Source: a virus
Reading direction: 5' to 3' (one strand)
IMG/VR virus record: IMGVR_UViG_3300004448_000035
Coordinates: 1-29,375 of that record
DNA: 29,375 nt
A program made the position numbers and the translations under genes. Below, in pieces: positions 16,614 to 26,144 of this stretch; within the stretch, counting starts at the first letter, position 1, and every line of letters begins with the position of its first letter. The notes under the pieces are model-generated. The model was not told where the DNA came from. It saw only the letters and a program-made list of their open reading frames with translations, and made no database searches.

Positions 16614-16706
16614 CTATCTGCCCAGCAATAAAGCTAACCCGATTGCTAATACAGAAAGAGGTATTAATAATACTATTGCGTATAATAAATGTTCTAATAT
16701 TTTCAT
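16614..16706 (-). CDS. 30-residue single-pass membrane peptide
   Basis: Reads MKILEHLLYAIVLLIPLSVL then AIGLALLLGR: one hydrophobic helix of about 20 residues with a short charged head and a terminal Arg. The ATG overlaps the ParB-like stop by four bases (ATGA) and the TAG is followed after one base by the primase ATG, so it fills the only space between two real genes, good evidence that it is a gene. Function unknown; membrane anchor or inner-membrane effector are possibilities. Confidence 0.72.
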   Translation of the reverse strand: MKILEHLLYAIVLLIPLSVLAIGLALLLGR

Positions 16707-17209
16707 AGTTTTTTATGCTTCCAACCTTTCAGTTGGTCTCCAAGTTCTTCGAAGTCTGTCATAGCTTTTCCACTTGGATCTTCTTTGTGTTCGTAGTATT
16801 TACTCTTCCAAGCAAGTTCTACCATTTGAAACCATATTGCTATGGCTTTATTTCTAAATTCTTTATCTCCCCATAAATAAAACATATTCCACCATTCTTT
16901 TTGAAAACGGAATACTTCTACTTTCATTGTCTTAAACATCCAGCCATCTTTATGTGTCTTAACTATTTCTTGCATTGCTCTCAGTCTTTGACTTCCTGCA
17001 ATCGGATAATAACTGGGCATGGTTAGTATTGGGGACTGTATGCCATGCAATATCAAACTTTCCATAAGGGGTTCATTTACTGGTACTTTGTGAATATTAT
17101 CACGCACCGTTGGTTGATTCAATAAAAACTTTATTGATCTAGTTTCCCTATCGAAAGGTGGCAGAGCTATTAACTCTGCCGTTTCTTTACTAATTCTATC
17201 TGCCGCCAT
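16703..17209 (-). CDS. ParB/Srx-fold N-terminal-like protein
   Basis: 168 residues. The middle part, VNEPLMESLILHGIQSPILT followed by YYPIAGSQRLRAMQEI, fits the ParB N-terminal (ParB/sulfiredoxin) core, where a substrate or nucleotide is held by the G-x-x-R-x-x-A segment. There is no helix-turn-helix DNA-binding domain after it, so it is not a partition protein; family members act as nucleases, CTP/ATP-dependent switches or enzymes. The C-terminal half is basic and tryptophan-rich (KEWWNMFYLWGDKEF, GWKHKKL). It lies between DUF7220-like and primase genes in the replication operon, suggesting a replication-linked role (inference). Confidence 0.68.
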   Translation of the reverse strand: MAADRISKETAELIALPPFDRETRSIKFLLNQPTVRDNIHKVPVNEPLMESLILHGIQSPILTMPSYYPIAGSQRLRAMQEIVKTHKDGWMFKTMKVEVFRFQKEWWNMFYLWGDKEFRNKAIAIWFQMVELAWKSKYYEHKEDPSGKAMTDFEELGDQLKGWKHKKL

Positions 17210-17456
17210 TTCTTACTTTTCTCCATAAGCCATGTCTGCGTCTCTTTTCAATTTCCATACGAATCATATATGTTCTTATTAATGCTACTACTGTAAATAT
17301 AAAAGTAGTAGTTAGAGATATAAGAAAAGCACTTGTCCATTCCCATCTCTCTATCATTAGCCATAACATAAATGTTTGTAAAGGAAAATTAATTATTAGA
17401 GCAGCACCTACTTGTACTAAAGATTCCTGTAGTGCTGCTTTCTCTGTTTTAGTCAT
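17196..17456 (-). CDS. Two-pass membrane protein, DUF7220-like
   Basis: 86 residues with two predicted membrane helices, about 14-36 (QVGAALIINFPLQTFMLWLM) and 43-63 (FLISLTTTFIFTVVALIRT), followed by a strongly basic end (RMEIEKRRRHGLWRKVRNGG). The pattern of two helices then an R-x-Y motif (RTYMIR) before a basic tail matches the small DUF7220 family of phage and plasmid proteins. It overlaps the preceding 54-residue gene by eight bases and the ParB-like gene by 14. Its presence in a replication operon hints at tethering of the replisome to the membrane; this is speculation. Confidence 0.7.
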   Translation of the reverse strand: MTKTEKAALQESLVQVGAALIINFPLQTFMLWLMIERWEWTSAFLISLTTTFIFTVVALIRTYMIRMEIEKRRRHGLWRKVRNGGR

Positions 17457-17613
17457 AATTCATTTCATCCCATAATTTGTTTTCGTGTTCTGTCTCGTAT
17501 ATTGTACGAAACTCCTCGATTGTTGGTTCTGCAATTCTTAGATTGCCCTGTTTTAGTTCTCTTACATATCTAGTGTATGCTATGAGTAACTGATTTTCTG
17601 TGTATAATATCAT
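17449..17613 (-). CDS. Hypothetical 54-residue protein after helicase
   Basis: Reads from MILYTENQLLIAYTRYVREL to DEMNYD. It starts in an ATGA overlap with the helicase stop and runs into the DUF7220-like start with eight bases of overlap, so it exactly fills the space. Mostly helical, acidic C-terminal half (EPTIEEFRTIYETEHENK), no membrane segment. Not recognised; a small helicase-associated or host-targeting factor is possible. Confidence 0.72.
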   Translation of the reverse strand: MILYTENQLLIAYTRYVRELKQGNLRIAEPTIEEFRTIYETEHENKLWDEMNYD

Positions 17614-18965
17614 ATATCGTCTACGTTTTCTCCTGTTGCCATATTGTTAGCTATTGCTTCTTTCTCTTTAGGATTCATAGCAGACTGTGGACCAATCTTT
17701 AAGGTCTCCCAGTCTACTGTACTAGTAAAACTTTCCATTCTATTACTTCTCATTTTAACACAATTAAAAGTCATACAATTATCTTGTTGTTCCCATGTCT
17801 CTAAAGAGTAAGCAGCATCCGCCGCATCAAGAATACCTTTTGCAAACCTAGCTTCACCACTCGCATCTGTTTGATACGGAGCAAATACCATAGTTTCATA
17901 CTCTTGTGCATATAATTTCATTTTCTTACTTACTTCTATCTGTTCTGTCCAATCATATTGTCCACCACTACGGCTTGGAGCATTATGTCGTTTAACTTGG
18001 TTTAGATAGTCTACTATTACTACGCCTACATCTAATTGATTTACTTTTTTATCTAACTCGGATTGAATCTTGGATAAAGTAAGCGACGGGTCATATATTA
18101 CATCTAACTGTCTTTCTTTGTGTAGGTCTAACTTGGTTAATTTCTTATGAAATTCATCAAAGTCATGTGTCTTTTTAAATTCTGGTAGTAGTTCATGTCC
18201 GCCATCGAAACGACCTGCCCACCATCCACCGACCATATTCCATTCCTCACTAGAAAGCATTTTGTTTCTAAGTCGGCTAAAGGGGATCTTGGTGGATATG
18301 GCACATATTCTCTGTAGAATTGATCTACTGTCCATTTCTATTGTAAAATAGATAGCGCTACGACCTGAGTCGTATACATTTGCTGCGAGGTTACAACAGG
18401 TAAGTGATTTACCTGAGCCTCTTCGTCCGCCTACTAACACTAAGTCTTTAGGCGAGAACAAAATTTGTGAGTCATACTCACTATTGAGTCCTAAGGGTAA
18501 GTACCTCGATAGTTCCTTGTCATCTTCAAATAAGGAAATACTTTGCATACTTTCTTCGGGAGCTTTGACATCTACCTTGTCACTTACCCTTAAAACTATT
18601 TCTTGTAGTTGTTCTATGTTTTCTTCTGCTGTTGCCATTGCAACGGTGTTATCAATATATGCATCCAGTTGGTCTAGTATTTCTACTTGTGCATATTCAT
18701 TCTTTAGATAGTCTAGTAAAAGCCACGCGTCTACCTCGACATCTACTGACTCGATTGCGAATATTTTTTCTTGGAGTTGTCGATCTCGCACTTCATAACG
18801 GAGATCTTCGAATTGTGGAAGGTCTTGATAATTATCTATGTGTTTATCAAGAATACGGAAAATTGACTGGTACTCGCCAGGTAGGTAATGTTCTTTTAGC
18901 TTAGCCCATGTGTCTAAGTCTTTCTGAACTATAATCTGTTTTAATAACGCTGACGCAATATTCAA
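17610..18965 (-). CDS. Replicative DNA helicase, DnaB/gp41-like
   Basis: Unwinds DNA ahead of the polymerase and works with the separate primase. 451 residues from a TTG start at 18965 with GGGAG six bases before it; the longer frame back to an ATG at 19016 would begin inside a terminator hairpin and add an unlikely cysteine/phenylalanine-rich leader. The N-terminal ~150 residues are helical (primase/loader-contact domain). The RecA-like motor has Walker A VGGRRGSGKSLTC, IYFTIEMDSRSILQRI, Walker B VGVVIVDYLNQVKR, and FAPYQTDASGEARFAKGI with the sensor Q and arginine-finger region. An ATGA overlap joins it to the next gene. Confidence 0.93.
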   Translation of the reverse strand: MNIASALLKQIIVQKDLDTWAKLKEHYLPGEYQSIFRILDKHIDNYQDLPQFEDLRYEVRDRQLQEKIFAIESVDVEVDAWLLLDYLKNEYAQVEILDQLDAYIDNTVAMATAEENIEQLQEIVLRVSDKVDVKAPEESMQSISLFEDDKELSRYLPLGLNSEYDSQILFSPKDLVLVGGRRGSGKSLTCCNLAANVYDSGRSAIYFTIEMDSRSILQRICAISTKIPFSRLRNKMLSSEEWNMVGGWWAGRFDGGHELLPEFKKTHDFDEFHKKLTKLDLHKERQLDVIYDPSLTLSKIQSELDKKVNQLDVGVVIVDYLNQVKRHNAPSRSGGQYDWTEQIEVSKKMKLYAQEYETMVFAPYQTDASGEARFAKGILDAADAAYSLETWEQQDNCMTFNCVKMRSNRMESFTSTVDWETLKIGPQSAMNPKEKEAIANNMATGENVDDI

Positions 18966-18986: not shown

Positions 18987-19014
18987 AAAAAATAGGCAGG
19001 GGCGAACCCCTGCC
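18987..19014 (-). terminator. Strong rho-independent terminator with UUCG loop
   Basis: On the minus strand GGCAGGGG-TTCG-CCCCTGCC (19014-18995) followed by TATTTTTT. The eight-pair GC-rich stem with a UUCG tetraloop is a near-ideal terminator. It lies 24 bases after the tandem HTH gene and 22 before the helicase start, so helicase expression needs read-through or a promoter I do not recognise. Confidence 0.95.
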
Positions 19015-19038
19015 ATAAACTAATCTAAGTTTTTAGAA

Positions 19039-19755
19039 TTAACTAATGTCTTTTTTAGCCGCGCCGTTGTAGTCTGAACATTGTAGACCACGTCTTGTTA
19101 GCATAGTTTTTACACCTCTAACAGTTTTGCCAATCTCATCAGCAATAGCTTCAACAGTCATTCCTTCAACATCAATGTCTGCAAGAACATCTGCTTTAGA
19201 TGAACCTTTAGTTTCTTTTTGTTTTGGGATAGCGTTGATTTCGCCACTTCTTAAAAGAGAAAGAGCTTTTCCTCTGATTGAGTTAACAGATTTGTCTAAT
19301 GCTGCAGCGATTTCTTCTACGAATGATCCGCCGTTCACCATTTCAACAAAGGTTACTTCTTCTGAAGGAGTATAAGTTCTAACTGTTTCAACTTTAGGAG
19401 CAGGCTTAACGTGGGAAGTTAATTCCATTGATAAGATTTTTCCTTGGATTGATTTAGCTGAGAAGTGTCCGCCTTCAAAGTTTGATGCAATTTCTGCATA
19501 TGTGTAGTCGCCTGAGTTATCAGAAACGAATGCACTTAAAGTTGCTTCTTGATCTTCGCTAAAAGATTTTGATGCGGATGCTGAAGCTAGTTCAACATCG
19601 AATCCCATCTTTCTCAATTTGCTAGATACTGAACGAGTTGATGTTTCTAATTCATCAGCTGCGTTAGCAACAGTAGCTTGAGTGATTGGGCTTTCAGAAC
19701 CAACAAAGTCTGTTAGTTGTTGAGTTCTTTCGTCTGTCCATTTTGGTAATGCCAT
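19039..19755 (-). CDS. Tandem HTH-repeat DNA-binding protein
   Basis: 238 residues made of about four copies of a small three-helix unit: 6-57 (WTDERTQQLTDFV to VSSKLRKMGFDV), 65-118 (FSEDQEATLSAFV to IQGKILSMEL), 128-178 (YTPSEEVTFVEMV to IRGKALSLL) and a shortened fourth at 189-237 (MTVEAIADEIGKTVRGVKTML). Each begins with an aromatic-[TS]-x-[ED] helix and ends with S-[VI]-x-x-K-[LIA], as in SANT/Myb or homeodomain-like HTH units. Serine/alanine-rich and proline-rich linkers separate them. A good ribosome site (GAGGAA) precedes it, a strong terminator follows. Probably an abundant DNA-binding protein; regulator or DNA-organising protein are both possible. Confidence 0.8.
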   Translation of the reverse strand: MALPKWTDERTQQLTDFVGSESPITQATVANAADELETSTRSVSSKLRKMGFDVELASASASKSFSEDQEATLSAFVSDNSGDYTYAEIASNFEGGHFSAKSIQGKILSMELTSHVKPAPKVETVRTYTPSEEVTFVEMVNGGSFVEEIAAALDKSVNSIRGKALSLLRSGEINAIPKQKETKGSSKADVLADIDVEGMTVEAIADEIGKTVRGVKTMLTRRGLQCSDYNGAAKKDIS

Positions 19756-19758
19756 TTT

Positions 19759-20520
19759 TTATTCCTCTATAATGTGTTTTAGGTTATTAAATATTTTTAT
19801 CCCTAGTTCTTCTGCCTTCTTAGTTTTCGAACTTGCAATTCCACTTTCGTTAAGTAAGATAGTTACATCTTTCGTTAAGCTATCTTTTACAATAAAGCCG
19901 TATTTTTCCAATACTTGCTTAGCGGCTGCTTTAGTTGGGTAAGATTTTAACTTACCACTAATACAAACTGTTCCCTTTGTGTCGCTATGACTGACTTCTA
20001 CTTGTTTATCACAAGTAAAAGAAAATGGGAGGTTATTGTAACCCTTCGTGAAGAACGTGTTCTCCAACCAAGTTACAAGGTTCGACGCCGCTTTCGGACC
20101 CAGACCTGCTTCTATACATATCTCTGGGGTTATCTCATATATTGATGAGATGTATTTCGCTAATTTATTAGTAGCACTTGAGCCAATCAGCGGTATCGAA
20201 AAAGCTGGTAATAGAGTTAGAAGGTTGACACTCTTTGAATTTTGAATTTCTGTGTGTAGTTTCGTACCTAGTTTCTCTGAATCCAGTAATGATGATATTT
20301 CAACTTGGGATAAGCAATAAATATCTTCATAATCACAAAGACCAAGTCTATCTATAGTAGATGGACCAAGCCCTTTAATCTTTAGGGTTTTTGCAAAGTG
20401 TTCTAAACGCTTTGCTGATTTAGCAGAGCAAGTAGTACTAAGACAGAATAACTGATCGTTCACAAATTCCAATTCGCTGTTGCAAGCTGGACAATTTGTT
20501 GGCGGTACTATCTCTCTCAA
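19759..20520 (-). CDS. NAD+-dependent DNA ligase, C-terminal half (Zn finger, HhH, BRCT)
   Basis: 253 residues. It has the LigA zinc finger (CPACNSELEF and FCLSTTC), helix-hairpin-helix repeats (IKGLGPSTIDRLG, LIGSSATNKLA, GLGPKAASNL) and a C-terminal BRCT domain (GTVCISGKLKSYPTKAAAKQ to KTKKAEELGIKIF). It has no adenylation domain; that lies in a separate gene 2.7 kb upstream. Start set at the TTG at 20520, 11 bases after AGGAG: a longer frame back to 20577 would start inside the -35 box of the promoter that serves this gene. The product should bind the other half to form a complete DNA-clamping ligase, as in phage T5's two-gene ligase. Confidence 0.88.
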   Translation of the reverse strand: MREIVPPTNCPACNSELEFVNDQLFCLSTTCSAKSAKRLEHFAKTLKIKGLGPSTIDRLGLCDYEDIYCLSQVEISSLLDSEKLGTKLHTEIQNSKSVNLLTLLPAFSIPLIGSSATNKLAKYISSIYEITPEICIEAGLGPKAASNLVTWLENTFFTKGYNNLPFSFTCDKQVEVSHSDTKGTVCISGKLKSYPTKAAAKQVLEKYGFIVKDSLTKDVTILLNESGIASSKTKKAEELGIKIFNNLKHIIEE

Positions 20521-20548: not shown

Positions 20549-20577
20549 ATTATATCAAACGAGTGACCATTTGTCAA
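20549..20577 (-). promoter_or_regulatory. Consensus sigma70 promoter before ligase C-half
   Basis: TTGACA (20577-20572), 17 bases, TATAAT (20554-20549) on the minus strand, with the A-rich AAAAAATAACTC upstream. The predicted start near 20542 leaves a 21-base leader holding TAGGAGA before the TTG at 20520. The promoter overlaps the last codons of the GIY-YIG-like gene. Confidence 0.93.
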
Positions 20578-20942
20578 GAGTTATTTTTTGGAAAGTCTGA
20601 TAAAATAAGGGATGAAATTTTGAAGCACTCCGTATGCCCACCAAACTTTTGTTTGGGTTTATAACTATCGTGTTTAAACTTCTCGTGTAGCTGCTGCTCG
20701 TATTTCCAACAGTTGTAGATGGTGTCGTGGTAGGTTCGTTGAATACGCAACTCATAACCTTTGAAGCCACGGCTTCTTTTTATAACATGCCGCCAGTCTT
20801 TGCCGCCAGCAATTCCTACCTTGATGCACTCGCGCTCAAAGGTCTGTGTATTAACTAATATAACTCCGTAAAGAACACCTTCTCTTAGTTGTTCTTCGGG
20901 TCTATTATTAAAATAAGTTTGATTGTATACTCCTTTACTCAT
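20574..20942 (-). CDS. GIY-YIG-like protein (T5orf172/MUG113 type)
   Basis: 122 residues. LYGVILVN followed by IKVGIAGGKDWRHVIKRSRGF fits the strand pair and arginine of the GIY-YIG fold in its T5orf172/Mug113 version, and the later E-x-x-LHEKF plus GGHTECF matches the family's helix with a metal-binding Glu and its closing TE-x-F signature. The first tyrosine of the classical GIY is kept in LYG but YIG is replaced by VGI. It may be a homing or structure-specific nuclease, or an inactive DNA-binding relative. Last gene of the ligase-headed operon; overlaps the preceding gene by eight bases. Confidence 0.65.
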   Translation of the reverse strand: MSKGVYNQTYFNNRPEEQLREGVLYGVILVNTQTFERECIKVGIAGGKDWRHVIKRSRGFKGYELRIQRTYHDTIYNCWKYEQQLHEKFKHDSYKPKQKFGGHTECFKISSLILSDFPKNNS

Positions 20943-21153
20943 TAGTCCACTTCAGTCCGTTTTCTAATGCGAAGAGACACCCTTGATAAAATTCTCTGTC
21001 ATCTTCTTCTATGAAGTGCCATTTGTATTCTACTTTGCTCATATGTTTATATACTTTCTTAGGGTTTGTAAGATGCATTTGTTTATTCATCATCATCTCT
21101 AGCTTGTCAAAGTGTGTTACAATATCATTTTTGTATGCTTCTAGTTTAGTCAT
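20935..21153 (-). CDS. Hypothetical 72-residue protein
   Basis: Not recognised. Helical, charged, methionine-rich near the start (EMMMNKQMHL), with an acidic turn EEDDREFYQGCLFALENGL near the end. No membrane segment. It begins one base after the stop of the 55-residue membrane gene and overlaps the GIY-YIG-like gene by eight bases. The pattern of a helical pair with KLEMMM...YKWHFIEEDDREF could be a small protein-binding factor. Confidence 0.65.
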   Translation of the reverse strand: MTKLEAYKNDIVTHFDKLEMMMNKQMHLTNPKKVYKHMSKVEYKWHFIEEDDREFYQGCLFALENGLKWTNE

Positions 21154-21154
21154 T

Positions 21155-21322
21155 TTACCAGTTATGTACTACATTTGCCATAATAAATACAGCACAGAGA
21201 AGATTCGTAAGTACAATAATAAATCTTATTAGACCTATTGCATTTTCGTTTCTTCTATTATAGCCATCTTCTTCGTCAAACGAGCCGAGAGCGTGTTTTA
21301 ATATAACCCAAGCTCTTGTCAT
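21155..21322 (-). CDS. 55-residue single-pass membrane protein
   Basis: Reads MTRAWVILKHALGSFDEEDG, then a charged stretch with NRRNENAIG, and one hydrophobic helix (LIRFIIVLTNLLCAVFIMA) before a short NVVHNW end. Starts in an ATGA overlap with the 25-residue gene and stops one base before the next ATG, so it fills its space exactly. Unknown function; topology would place the 30-residue acidic/basic head on one side of the inner membrane. Confidence 0.72.
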   Translation of the reverse strand: MTRAWVILKHALGSFDEEDGYNRRNENAIGLIRFIIVLTNLLCAVFIMANVVHNW

Positions 21323-21396
21323 TGCTCCACCCACTTTTTCAAAGCAAATATAAATACAACTAAAGAAAGTATTACCCAGAACGGATCTACACTCAT
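21319..21396 (-). CDS. 25-residue membrane peptide
   Basis: MSVDPFWVILSLVVFIFALK then KWVEQ: one hydrophobic helix. The ATG overlaps the preceding stop by four bases and has GGAGG six bases before it, and its own stop overlaps the next ATG by four. The strong ribosome site and two coupled junctions support real translation in spite of its size. Function unknown. Confidence 0.7.
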   Translation of the reverse strand: MSVDPFWVILSLVVFIFALKKWVEQ

Positions 21397-21620
21397 TGTA
21401 TACCTCCGTTTAGTCCTAAATCAATAAAATAAAATGCAACCATCATACTTATTACTGTGAATATCTGAAAGAAAGAACCAGCAATTACTGCTCCCATTAC
21501 ATTCTTTACTGTCTCATGGTAGTCTGATGATTCGTTTTGCCACTGCTCAATTTCTTCAGGCGTAGCATCTCTCGATTGAAAGTTCAACTGGGGTTGACTT
21601 GGGAATTTTTCGTTTTTCAT
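21393..21620 (-). CDS. 75-residue membrane protein
   Basis: A polar N-terminal half (FPSQPQLNFQSRDATPEEIE) leads to a hydrophobic stretch at about 42-68 (MGAVIAGSFFQIFTVISMMV then AFYFIDLGL), which could be one long or two short membrane helices. Overlaps both neighbours by four bases (ATGA). Not recognised. It belongs to the run of small membrane genes in the ligase-headed operon. Confidence 0.7.
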   Translation of the reverse strand: MKNEKFPSQPQLNFQSRDATPEEIEQWQNESSDYHETVKNVMGAVIAGSFFQIFTVISMMVAFYFIDLGLNGGIQ

Positions 21621-21868
21621 TCTGTTTGTGGTTTTCCTTGTTTTGCCATCAACTCTCTATGAGTTGGATAGTCTTTCATTATTTCTCGTGTTGCTAGAAA
21701 GTCTTCTCTAGCTTTTTCTGTGTGTGTTCGTTCATCTTCTAGTTCCCAGTTAAGACCTGCTCTCTCTTTCTTCTTTCCGAATATCTTATCCCAGTTATCT
21801 TTAAACTGTTTACTATAAGAGCCGTCTCTTGCTGTTGAACCTTTTCCGCCGTGCCATTTCTTTGTCAT
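21617..21868 (-). CDS. Small basic conserved phage protein
   Basis: 83 residues from the ATG at 21868, which overlaps the stop of the preceding 55-residue gene by four bases; a TTG six codons earlier has no better support. The N-terminal motif MTKKWHGGKGSTARDGSYSK then NWDKIFGKKK is a pattern I recognise from small uncharacterised proteins in many tailed phages (K-G-S-x-x-R ... NWD-x-IFGK). The rest is charged helix (ELEDERTHTEKAREDF). No catalytic motif is visible; function unknown. Confidence 0.75.
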   Translation of the reverse strand: MTKKWHGGKGSTARDGSYSKQFKDNWDKIFGKKKERAGLNWELEDERTHTEKAREDFLATREIMKDYPTHRELMAKQGKPQTE

Positions 21869-22032
21869 TTCTGTTCTCGTAGCCAATCTCTATACATTAA
21901 AGGTTCGGCATCTTTAGTTAACTTCAGGTATTCCTGATATAACTGTTTATTATCTTTTGACTTCGTCATAGCAGTAACCCAGCCATCTGAGTTATCCTGC
22001 CATCTTTTTGAATTTGTTATTTTGCTTCCCAT
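21865..22032 (-). CDS. Hypothetical 55-residue protein
   Basis: Reads MGSKITNSKRWQDNSDGWVT through to YRDWLREQK. It starts 16 bases inside the end of the Cys-rich gene and ends in an ATGA overlap with the next gene. An internal ATG (codon 22) is a weaker alternative. Hydrophilic, helical in the second half (NKQLYQEYLKLTKDAEPLMY). Not recognised. Confidence 0.65.
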   Translation of the reverse strand: MGSKITNSKRWQDNSDGWVTAMTKSKDNKQLYQEYLKLTKDAEPLMYRDWLREQK

Positions 22033-22199
22033 TTGTTGCAGGTTTCTTCAGACAAAACTAAGTTTGCCCCTGCTTCATCGACTCTGCACCAACCTTCTGA
22101 TAACTTAGATGTTATATCATGTAGAGGTTGATAATATTTACACTCGCCACAGTTCAATGGGGGTAGCGGGTCTAGTCGTTTACGTTTTATTGTTTTCAA
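22017..22199 (-). CDS. Cys-rich small protein, four-cysteine metal site
   Basis: 60 residues with a basic head (KTIKRKRLDP) and four cysteines: CGECKYYQ, then SEGWCRVD and EETCNKWEAK. The spacing C-x2-C ... C ... C-x2-W-E resembles small metal-binding (zinc or possibly Fe-S) proteins often seen in phages and plasmids. No ATG is available; the frame begins with a TTG at 22199, 20 bases inside the previous gene, after a GGGAATAAAG stretch, so the start is uncertain. In a genome that also carries IscU, an Fe-S site is worth considering. Confidence 0.62.
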   Translation of the reverse strand: MKTIKRKRLDPLPPLNCGECKYYQPLHDITSKLSEGWCRVDEAGANLVLSEETCNKWEAK

Positions 22200-22482
22200 A
22201 TTTCTTTATTCCCATTACATAATTCTCTGCAGCTTTTTCTGCGTACTCCTCATTATGTTCTTCATATTTTTCACTAGCAACAAGAGTTTCTACTCCATCA
22301 ACTGTCTCATAGTAATCGCAACCGAATATATACTTATCATATAAGAATACTTCTGATCTTCTAATCTTGTTTATGTAGGTGTGTAAGTCTACTCGACCTA
22401 CCTTTAGAAGTGTATCCTCTAAAGTACATTCGCAATCAGCTCTTGCTTTCCCACATAATTCACATTCTATTGCTAAATACAT
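22180..22482 (-). CDS. Zinc-ribbon-headed small protein
   Basis: 100 residues. The N-terminus ECELCGKARADCECTLED packs four cysteines, enough for one zinc. A middle part (VDLHTYINKIRRSEVFLYDKYIFG) and an acidic helical end (YEEHNEEYAEKAAENYV) follow. Overlaps the previous gene by ten bases and the next by 20. Not recognised; a nucleic-acid- or protein-binding adaptor is plausible from the zinc site. Confidence 0.65.
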   Translation of the reverse strand: MYLAIECELCGKARADCECTLEDTLLKVGRVDLHTYINKIRRSEVFLYDKYIFGCDYYETVDGVETLVASEKYEEHNEEYAEKAAENYVMGIKKFENNKT

Positions 22483-22691
22483 TCTTCTACTCTCTCTATT
22501 GTGTTAATTTCTATATCAAGTGATTTATTATTATCTACATCCCATACTACTATTTTGTTGCCGTCTATCTGTTTCTTGATATGTTTAGGTAGTGTACAAC
22601 ATACGCTGTAAGTATTACTACTCGTAAGGGATTTATAAGTTATTAACTTATTTTTCCATGATAATTCTTTGTGTAGTTCTGCGAAGGACAT
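22473..22691 (-). CDS. Hypothetical 72-residue protein
   Basis: MSFAELHKELSWKNKLITYK start. The ATG at 22691 overlaps the previous stop by one base (TAATG); a GTG five codons upstream was rejected as less likely. Beta-rich (NTYSVCCTLPKHIKKQIDGN, KIVVWDVDNNKSLDIEINTI), consistent with a small barrel such as an SH3-like fold, but I do not recognise it. Confidence 0.62.
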   Translation of the reverse strand: MSFAELHKELSWKNKLITYKSLTSSNTYSVCCTLPKHIKKQIDGNKIVVWDVDNNKSLDIEINTIERVEECI

Positions 22692-22891
22692 TATTTTATG
22701 TTCCACTCCTCATTACCATTCTGTGTATTAAACTTTCTCACTAGAAACTTGAAGTTACTAACTACATAAGTAGCGTAATCATCATCTGCAACAAAAGAAC
22801 TCTTGTTCTCGTCAAGATAATCCACATACATTCTGCTTATAAATCCTCTGAATAAAGGACTAAATATTTCTGTAAATGCTTCCTGTCTCAT
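22691..22891 (-). CDS. Hypothetical 66-residue protein
   Basis: Not recognised. Starts in an ATGA overlap with the glutaredoxin stop. Aromatic-rich and amphipathic (FTEIFSPLFRGFISRMYVDY), then DDDYATYVVSNFKFLVRKF. No membrane helix of full length, no cysteines. Co-translated with glutaredoxin by position. Confidence 0.62.
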   Translation of the reverse strand: MRQEAFTEIFSPLFRGFISRMYVDYLDENKSSFVADDDYATYVVSNFKFLVRKFNTQNGNEEWNIK

Positions 22892-23115
22892 AGCTTTGCA
22901 ACTAATGCTGCATAGTCATCATACCCACCAACATAGTTGCCACTGACATTAATCTGTGGAAAAGAGCGAGCTGTTGGGAACTCCTCTGCAATGAATTGCA
23001 TATCAAAGTCTACACCAAGTTGTTTGTATTCTACTTCGTGTCCTTCTCTTTCTGCTAGTGCTTTTGCTTTATCACAATACGCACAGTTTGTTTTACCGAA
23101 TATCTCTACTACCAT
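22888..23115 (-). CDS. Glutaredoxin
   Basis: 75 residues, full-length small glutaredoxin. Dithiol active site CAYC at 11-14, a cis-proline motif SFPQI (P53) and a glycine pair plus acidic turn GNYVGGYDD for glutathione contact. In T4 and many marine phages such proteins give electrons to the phage ribonucleotide reductase, which this genome also encodes; it could also serve the peroxiredoxin or Fe-S handling (inference). A clear AGAGGA ribosome site precedes the ATG, and it overlaps the next gene by four bases. Confidence 0.95.
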   Translation of the reverse strand: MVVEIFGKTNCAYCDKAKALAEREGHEVEYKQLGVDFDMQFIAEEFPTARSFPQINVSGNYVGGYDDYAALVAKL

Positions 23116-23116
23116 T

Positions 23117-23218
23117 TTATCCTCTTTTATTAATGACTAGCTGAGTTAGTGTATAAGGAATCATACTTACTAATGACCACAGAGGCCAGAAGATTAAGTT
23201 TGCAACTAATATACTCAT
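23117..23218 (-). CDS. 33-residue membrane peptide
   Basis: MSILVANLIFWPLWSLVSMI then PYTLTQLVINKRG: one hydrophobic helix with a basic C-terminus. The ATG overlaps the ligase N-half stop by four bases (ATGA), and the stop is one base before the glutaredoxin ATG. Fills its space exactly; function unknown. Confidence 0.72.
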   Translation of the reverse strand: MSILVANLIFWPLWSLVSMIPYTLTQLVINKRG

Positions 23219-24168
23219 ACTCTTGCTACGATTTGGGGAATAATTTCCCCTGCTCTAATTACTTCAACATCACATCCAATCTCTAAACCGAGTTGTTCGA
23301 TAATAGCTATGTTATGTAAGGTTGCTCTACTGACTGTTGCGCCGTCTATATTGACAGGCTCTAAGATTCCTACTGGGGAAACATTTCCTGATTTACCTAC
23401 TTGCCATACTACATCCAATAGTTTTGTAACTACTCCTGCTTGTTTGACTTTGTGAGCAAATGCACCTCGAGGGTGATGTCCAGTATACCCTAGGGTTTCG
23501 AAAGCGTTATTATTAATAACACGCCATACTTGTCCGTCTTGGGGAAACTCTGTGTAATCTGAATCAATTATTGTTTTGAAGCCACATCCACCAAGAAACT
23601 TCATGTCGAACATAAAGTCATCTGAAGGATAAGGTTGGACGCCATACGCAATGAAAGTTAAATCTCTTTTCTGAAATTCGTCTGAGTCATGTAGACTTAG
23701 CGCACCCGCTGCATAGTTACGACTATTCTTAATCGTGGCAGGGGCTACTACTTCTCCAGTAACTTGTAAGATTTCTATACCCATGGCGGGTAAAAGGTTG
23801 ATAGGCACTATATGCCTAATGTTGTCGGTAATGTCAAGACCTTTCTTGCCATCGCCTCGTGTTAAGGCAAGTGATAACCTACCTTGGATGTATTGTAAAC
23901 TGACGGCAGCACCGTCTAACTTAGGGGAAACTACTACTGGTTGCTTTTTATAGTCTGGTCCAGCTTCGTCATCATATACTTTCTGTAAAGAATACATAGG
24001 ATAGTAATGAGACCAGCGAGCGCTTTTCTCGTCAACTTGCATACCAACTACTTGGTCTAAAGTACTGAGTTGATCTTCGAGTCTGTCGTATATCTCATCA
24101 GACATAATAGGCATACCATTGTAGTATGCTACTTTTGCTTTATTTATTATTTCTTCTAAATTTTTCAT
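23215..24168 (-). CDS. ligA: NAD+-dependent DNA ligase, N-terminal half (adenylation, OB fold)
   Basis: 317 residues that end just after the OB-fold, about half of a LigA (~670 residues). Domain Ia has AYYNGMPIMSDEIYDRLEDQ; the AMP-accepting lysine is in VSPKLDGAAVS, followed by RGDGKKGLDITDNIR and LQVTGEVVAP; the OB fold has DVVWQVGKSGNVSPVG, EPVNIDGATVSRATLHN and VIRAGEIIPQIVARV. Zinc finger, HhH and BRCT domains are in a separate gene at 19759-20520. The organisation matches the two-gene ligase of phage T5. The upstream promoter puts the mRNA start on this ATG, so it is probably translated without a leader. Confidence 0.92.
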   Translation of the reverse strand: MKNLEEIINKAKVAYYNGMPIMSDEIYDRLEDQLSTLDQVVGMQVDEKSARWSHYYPMYSLQKVYDDEAGPDYKKQPVVVSPKLDGAAVSLQYIQGRLSLALTRGDGKKGLDITDNIRHIVPINLLPAMGIEILQVTGEVVAPATIKNSRNYAAGALSLHDSDEFQKRDLTFIAYGVQPYPSDDFMFDMKFLGGCGFKTIIDSDYTEFPQDGQVWRVINNNAFETLGYTGHHPRGAFAHKVKQAGVVTKLLDVVWQVGKSGNVSPVGILEPVNIDGATVSRATLHNIAIIEQLGLEIGCDVEVIRAGEIIPQIVARV

Positions 24169-25618: not shown

Positions 25619-25746
25619 AGTACTCCTCGGTTCTTTAATTCGTTAATAATAAACTCTACAGTTACATACCCTAATCCACCCCATATTGCTAGGTTGATTA
25701 AGATGTGCGCTATAGTAGTCGGTAGTGTGAATATAAATTCAATCAT
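25615..25746 (-). CDS. 43-residue membrane peptide next to iscU
   Basis: MIEFIFTLPTTIAHILINLA then IWGGLGYVTVEFIINELKNR GVL: one hydrophobic helix of about 25 residues and a charged end. It overlaps the iscU stop and the following start by four bases each (ATGA at both ends), and has no room to be anything else. Function unknown. Confidence 0.72.
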   Translation of the reverse strand: MIEFIFTLPTTIAHILINLAIWGGLGYVTVEFIINELKNRGVL

Positions 25747-26144
25747 TTTGTTTTGCTCTCCCAATCTTCGATTGCTGATTTAATACTTCCTTCTGCTAAT
25801 ACAGAGCAATGTAATTTTATTGGCGGCAGATTAAGTGCTGCTGCTATGTCTCTGTCTTTAATTAGCTTAGCTTCTTCTATTGTTTTCCCTGTTAGCATAT
25901 CTACAAATAAAGATGAGGAGGCTATCGCACTACCACATCCATACGTTTTGAACTTGACACTCTTAATCGTGTCAGACAAGGGGTCTATCCTTAGTTGAAG
26001 TTTCATTACATCACCACACGCAGGTGCACCTGTCATGCCTGTTGCTACATCTGGGTCTTTAGGATTAAATCTCCCTACTGAATATTCTGCTGGGTTATTT
26101 AAAACTCCTTCAAATCTATCAATTACTTCTTTACTGTATGCCAT
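25743..26144 (-). CDS. iscU: Iron-sulfur cluster scaffold protein IscU
   Basis: 133 residues, full length and very like bacterial IscU. Cluster ligands C43 (GAPACGD), C70 (TYGCGSAIASSS) and C113 (KLHCSVLAE), with the assisting D45 and H112, are all present, as is the LPPIK segment (106-110) that the HscA chaperone recognises in E. coli. It builds [2Fe-2S] clusters on itself and passes them on. No IscS, IscA, HscA or ferredoxin gene is in the window, so it would have to use the host machinery. Overlaps its neighbours by one base (TAATG) and four bases (ATGA). Confidence 0.96.
   Translation of the reverse strand: MAYSKEVIDRFEGVLNNPAEYSVGRFNPKDPDVATGMTGAPACGDVMKLQLRIDPLSDTIKSVKFKTYGCGSAIASSSLFVDMLTGKTIEEAKLIKDRDIAAALNLPPIKLHCSVLAEGSIKSAIEDWESKTK

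Follow-up and report, generated by a model that had tools for sequence, protein, structure and literature searches.

The question raised by this locus is what kind of protein is encoded on the minus strand between a ligase gene and a replicative helicase gene, and what it might do for the virus. An earlier note described it as a chain of four tandem helix-turn-helix (HTH) units with a strong terminator of its own and knew of no characterised equivalent. The window, meaning the whole stretch of DNA that was analysed, is a separate 29 kb virus record of 29,375 nucleotides. The features discussed below are collected in Table 1.

Table 1. Features of the D5 locus, in window positions; residue numbers are those of the D5 protein.
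Feature	Position	Strand	Description
Sigma-70 promoter TTGACA-17-TATAAT	20549..20577	-	Predicted, with TG extension; 12/12 match; directly before ligB
ligB	19759..20520	-	NAD-dependent DNA ligase, C-terminal half with BRCT; phrog_3498, E 3.4e-61
D5 orthologue ORF	19039..19755	-	238 amino acids, intact, ATG start
HTH unit 1	19603..19740	-	Residues ~6-51; helices 8-18, 26-35, 40-49; recognition helix 40-49, TRSVSSKLRK
HTH unit 2	19423..19566	-	Residues ~64-111; helices 67-79, 86-96, 100-109; recognition helix 100-109, AKSIQGKILS
HTH unit 3	19246..19377	-	Residues ~127-170; helices 130-141, 146-153, 157-169; recognition helix 157-169, VNSIRGKALSLLR
HTH unit 4	19087..19176	-	Residues ~194-223; main helices 201-208, 212-222; sigma-70 region 4-like; no aromatic-T-x-E start
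Intrinsic terminator hairpin	18995..19014	-	GGCAGGGG-UUCG-CCCCUGCC and U-rich tail; between D5 and helicase
DnaB-like replicative helicase	17610..18965	-	Downstream of terminator; phrog_19, E 1.8e-50

Identity of the gene and its neighbourhood

The protein belongs to a family that is already known. The profile phrog_323 ('transcriptional regulator, D5-like') matches it with E 1.1e-42 over nearly its full length (residues 2-235 against profile positions 4-258 of 319). Its gene lies between ligB and a DnaB-like helicase, and its four HTH units are fixed in number, as in PHROG 323. The order ligB-D5-terminator-helicase-primase-polymerase is that of T5, and the gene order is shared with phages phi 3, Achelous, 234P1 and Sugarland as well. 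The profile match and the synteny establish orthology with T5 D5, so that an equivalent does exist, and on this evidence the gene is identified as D5 of an uncultured T5-like (Demerecviridae-type) phage. Both the family and the place of the gene are the expected ones, and any new description may be limited to the fixed layout of four modules.

Searches with tblastn rendered 900 phage records matching the window protein, 895 of them with a query coverage of at least 80%, chiefly T5-like phages of Vibrio, Salmonella, Escherichia and Klebsiella. T5 D5 itself (ORF109 of AY587007; T5.118; PHROG 323) is 255 amino acids long, which is the same length class, and is 48% identical over residues 37-231. 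The two share the four units in the alignment, the ligB-D5-helicase order, a promoter before ligB, a hairpin behind D5 and a strong codon bias in D5. The window protein (25.5 kDa, net charge -8) differs from T5 D5 in having a shorter C-terminal tail, in lacking the short insertions of T5 unit 1 and in being more acidic (pI 5.0 compared with 6.3); the terminator sequence also differs. The Vibrio phages 234P1, Achelous and phi 3 (Demerecviridae) share the synteny and have D5 proteins 40-49% identical to that of the window. No closer named relatives were found, and IMG/VR contigs encode D5 proteins up to 82-100% identical. When viral structure models were searched with Foldseek, the top match was a Vibrio phage D5 (E 2.6e-24). 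In the record of Aeromonas phage AhSzq-1 (L086, 1992-2729) D5 is annotated as two ORFs owing to an in-frame stop; the helicase and primase annotations are also short, and sequence errors in that record are likely.

The surroundings are T5-like as well, with a split NAD-dependent ligase, D5, a DnaB-like helicase, a primase and a DNA polymerase, followed beyond the polymerase by a helicase, SbcC/SbcD-like subunits, a RusA-like resolvase, an exonuclease and ribonucleotide reductase. Scanning the window for Rfam families and for tRNAs gave no hits. The ligase halves, ligA (23215-24168) and ligB, lie about 2.7 kb apart, against a separation of about 0.2 kb in the genomes of T5 and Sugarland. The interval between them (20574-23215) holds an ORF for a T5orf172/GIY-YIG-like endonuclease (20574-20942) and small ORFs, some of which apparently encode membrane proteins; its content is possibly a homing-type insertion. 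Two ORFs between helicase and primase (17196-17456 and 16703-17209) gave only weak matches, DUF7220 just above the cut-off and a ParB-like match at E 0.01. A NifU-like Fe-S cluster assembly protein is encoded in the early region at 25743-26144 (phrog_8429, E 1e-24).

The four helix-turn-helix units

Homologues were gathered from IMG/VR, 30 of them were aligned, and AlphaFold2 was run with this alignment. The resulting model has a mean pLDDT of 86.6 and a pTM of 0.36, meaning that the local folds are confident and their relative placement uncertain; the low pTM fits beads on flexible linkers. Three units of three helices each (residues 8-49, 67-109 and 130-169) are followed by a fourth with two main helices (201-222) and a C-terminal helix. 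Comparison of the unit profiles with hhalign gave scores of 22.0 (units 1-2), 23.6 (1-3), 31.0 (1-4), 38.3 (2-3), 17.7 (2-4) and 25.9 (3-4), unit 3 thus pairing best with unit 2. All six pairings outscored each of their 40 column-shuffled controls, and reversed profiles scored 7-12. The claim of four units is therefore better than chance, and with the AlphaFold2 model it is borne out.

The repeat motifs proposed earlier, an aromatic-T-x-E start and an S-x-x-K-[LIA] end, stand in part. An aromatic residue followed by S or T with a nearby E opens units 1-3 (W6-T-D-E, F65-S-E-D, Y128-T-P-S-E). The end motif of the same three units is S-x-x-x-K-[LIA], with one residue more (S42..K46, S102..K106, S159..K163). 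Unit 4 has neither and amounts to a minimal HTH.

Conservation is concentrated in the recognition helices, where 19 of the 44 positions are invariant, compared with 14 of the other 194 (33 invariant residues in all; Fisher p 4e-8). The alignment is invariant at R41, K46, L47 and R48 in unit 1 and at Q104, G105, K106 and L108 in unit 2. Every unit repeats the same distribution of charge, with a mean of +2.0 to +3.7 in the recognition helices and -1.5 to -3.4 in helices 1 and 2. The conservation and the helix charge support putative DNA contacts by all four units.

Variation in repeat number among relatives had been suggested as something to look for, and none was found: no unit is gained or lost in the 30 aligned homologues. 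The length of D5 is 238-255 amino acids in all 125 sequences collected, except for one record broken by a stop. The equivalent lysines K106 (unit 2) and K163 (unit 3) are 57 residues apart in every one of the 30 sequences, and the distances between units 1 and 2 and between units 3 and 4 vary slightly.

Solved structures add little. A sequence search with the single window protein gave no match, a search with the D5 profile gave only weak HTH-type matches (the top one an engrailed homeodomain design, E 0.0017), and Foldseek matched the model to no PDB entry at E<=0.001. This last result is expected because the HTHs are short and on flexible linkers.

Transcription unit and codon bias

The hairpin behind D5 is a real and strong terminator by prediction, with a perfect 8-bp stem (GGCAGGGG/CCCCTGCC), the tail TATTTTTT, a dG of -17.5 and a z of -2.96. 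A terminator-like hairpin of different sequence is found at the same place in most relatives, and in Sugarland a terminator is annotated there. The earlier note had drawn attention to the UUCG loop. The extra-stable form of this loop is C(UUCG)G, but here the closing pair is G-C. A special role for the loop was rejected, since other loops occupy the same place in most relatives.

The isolated expression of D5 that was proposed along with the terminator does not hold. D5 begins 3 bases past the stop of the preceding ORF, with the ribosome-binding site AGAGGAATAAAAA-ATG, and the predicted promoter lies about 820 bp upstream, in front of ligB, whose start is likely the TTG at 20520 behind AGGAGAAAG. 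This promoter is conserved: in nearly all relatives one that matches at 10-12 of 12 positions precedes D5 by about 760-940 bp, and the T5 record has two annotated early promoters before ligB. Because the positions of promoter and terminator recur in relatives, T5 and Sugarland, the hairpin is predicted to close a two-gene unit, with ligB first and D5 second, driven by the promoter before ligB. The helicase start is likely the TTG at 18965 (behind GGGAGAGG), since with the listed ATG at 19016 the reading frame would run across the hairpin. In the T5 record the annotated helicase start (ATG, L082 6665) also falls inside the hairpin, and there too a TTG farther downstream is the start suggested when the gene is aligned with those of phi 3 and Sugarland.

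The codon bias of D5 is the strongest in the window. Its effective number of codons (ENC) is 35.4, the lowest of the 21 genes compared, and none of 2000 simulations based on codon use in the remaining window genes reached this value. A similarly strong bias is seen in T5 (ENC 31.2), phi 3, Achelous, 234P1 and Sugarland (0-2 of 500 simulations). The bias in the window and in these five relatives, together with the promoter, gives indirect support to the suggestion of high expression. This agrees with the abundance published for a T5-like phage, in that D5 is one of the proteins that exceeded 100 spectral counts when particle preparations of phiR2-01 were analysed (PMC8624392).

Predicted function and alternative explanations

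The coating or organising of DNA, one of the roles first suggested for the chain, is the leading predicted function of D5. The protein is probably an early, abundant coat of double-stranded DNA with low specificity, likely cooperative, which aids the shift to replication and late expression. Work from 1979 reportedly found gpD5 of T5 to be an abundant, cooperative dsDNA-binding protein affecting DNA replication and late gene expression, both of which reportedly require it to proceed normally. For the window protein, we infer DNA binding, abundance and the effect on replication and late transcription from T5 D5. Lying second in the ligB-D5 unit, D5 would be produced early and abundantly under a strong promoter. 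Its four units, each with acidic helices 1 and 2 and a basic recognition helix, would lay it along double-stranded phage DNA on flexible linkers. The binding would have low sequence specificity and would probably be cooperative, and the coating would turn the programme from early expression toward replication and late expression. The acidity of the window protein is a main weakness of this explanation, being unusual for a general DNA coat, though T5 D5 is slightly acidic too.

T5 D5 was reported in a 2026 preprint to trigger retron-Kva2; the purified protein remodels the retron in mass photometry, and binding of its HTHs to msDNA was modelled (PMC13405049). The four mutated positions of T5 D5 correspond to S44, F65, V140 and G223 in the window protein.

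The fixed four-unit layout could fit a specific long operator equally. D5 would then be a sequence-specific regulator whose four HTHs jointly read such an operator at early or late promoters. The invariant residues of the recognition helices are in line with this, so is the constant spacing between units 2 and 3, which would be expected of a protein whose placement along DNA matters, and many records annotate D5 as a transcription factor. High abundance is unusual for an operator-specific factor, however, and the modelling of T5 D5 on the stem-loop of retron msDNA (PMC13405049) suggests loose specificity. This explanation appears unlikely, yet it deserves consideration.

Within the coating hypothesis, a more specific arrangement is conceivable but speculative, and we consider it rather doubtful. 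D5 would be a four-bead coat whose register is fixed, and the acidic helices of one unit would contact the basic recognition helix in an adjacent molecule. The resulting cooperative filament, a phage 'nucleoid', would mark DNA for late transcription and be sensed by retrons.

Two further explanations are quite improbable. The first takes D5 for an RNA-polymerase-associated factor, with unit 4 contacting the -35 region or the polymerase and the other units acting as tethers to DNA. Unit 4 of the window protein does match the Pfam model Sigma70_r4_2 (E 1.7e-8, above the curated cut-off), and the model is listed for 30 of 30 homologues. The match spans the HTH only (27 residues), however, and in some homologues it falls on unit 1, which indicates that it marks a generic HTH. 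The resemblance to the sigma-70 region 4 HTH (PF08281) is confined to unit 4, and D5 has no other sigma regions. Region 2 is lacking, and sigma-70 NCBIfam models are far below their cut-off. D5 as a sigma-70 factor with regions 4 and 2 was considered separately, and only the region 4-like HTH was found.

The second, about as improbable, is that D5 is packaged in the virion and travels with the DNA to act at once on entry. It is a major particle-associated protein in phiR2-01 (PMC8624392), and a single putative DNA-binding protein, given without a name, could still be detected when T5-like Bas33 was blocked after first-step transfer. On the other hand, an abundant DNA-binder co-purifies easily and the gene has an early-type promoter. 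In addition, an earlier proteomic study, as cited in PMC8624392, did not detect D5 in T5 virions.

It is highly improbable that D5 is a prokaryotic Myb/SANT array with a relationship to the Myb proteins of eukaryotes, the affinity first suspected. The aromatic-[ST] starts of units 1-3 point that way, as do the weak Pfam Myb scores that several homologues show on unit 2 (best E 7e-4). However, no D5 checked has a Myb score that reaches the Pfam cut-off, the window protein has none listed, no PDB fold matched at E<=0.001, and unit 4 lacks the start motif and scores as sigma-70 region 4. A true positive looks different. Multi-HTH proteins elsewhere in phages, such as gp98 of Bacillus phage KLEB27-3 and phrog_3855, have tandem HTHs weakly similar to D5 units 2-4, but gp98, unlike D5, has true Myb-type scores (E 5e-12) and a basic pI of 9.7, and its gene has different neighbours. 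The Myb-type repeats of gp98 (L084, 2563-3312) are well above the Pfam cut-off, and no relatives of it were found in the IMG/VR scan.

For the window alone, the outcome is an ordinary one, a known gene in a known place. The interest of the locus is modest and comes from its four-unit architecture and from the connection with retron sensing that has been reported. As a regulator, T5 D5 has long been known but is under-studied, and it has newly been reported as a retron trigger. The features of D5 described here are found across cultured and uncultured T5-like phages, and the four-unit layout, the fixed spacing between units 2 and 3, the ligB-D5 unit and the codon bias are testable handles on DNA coating and defence sensing.
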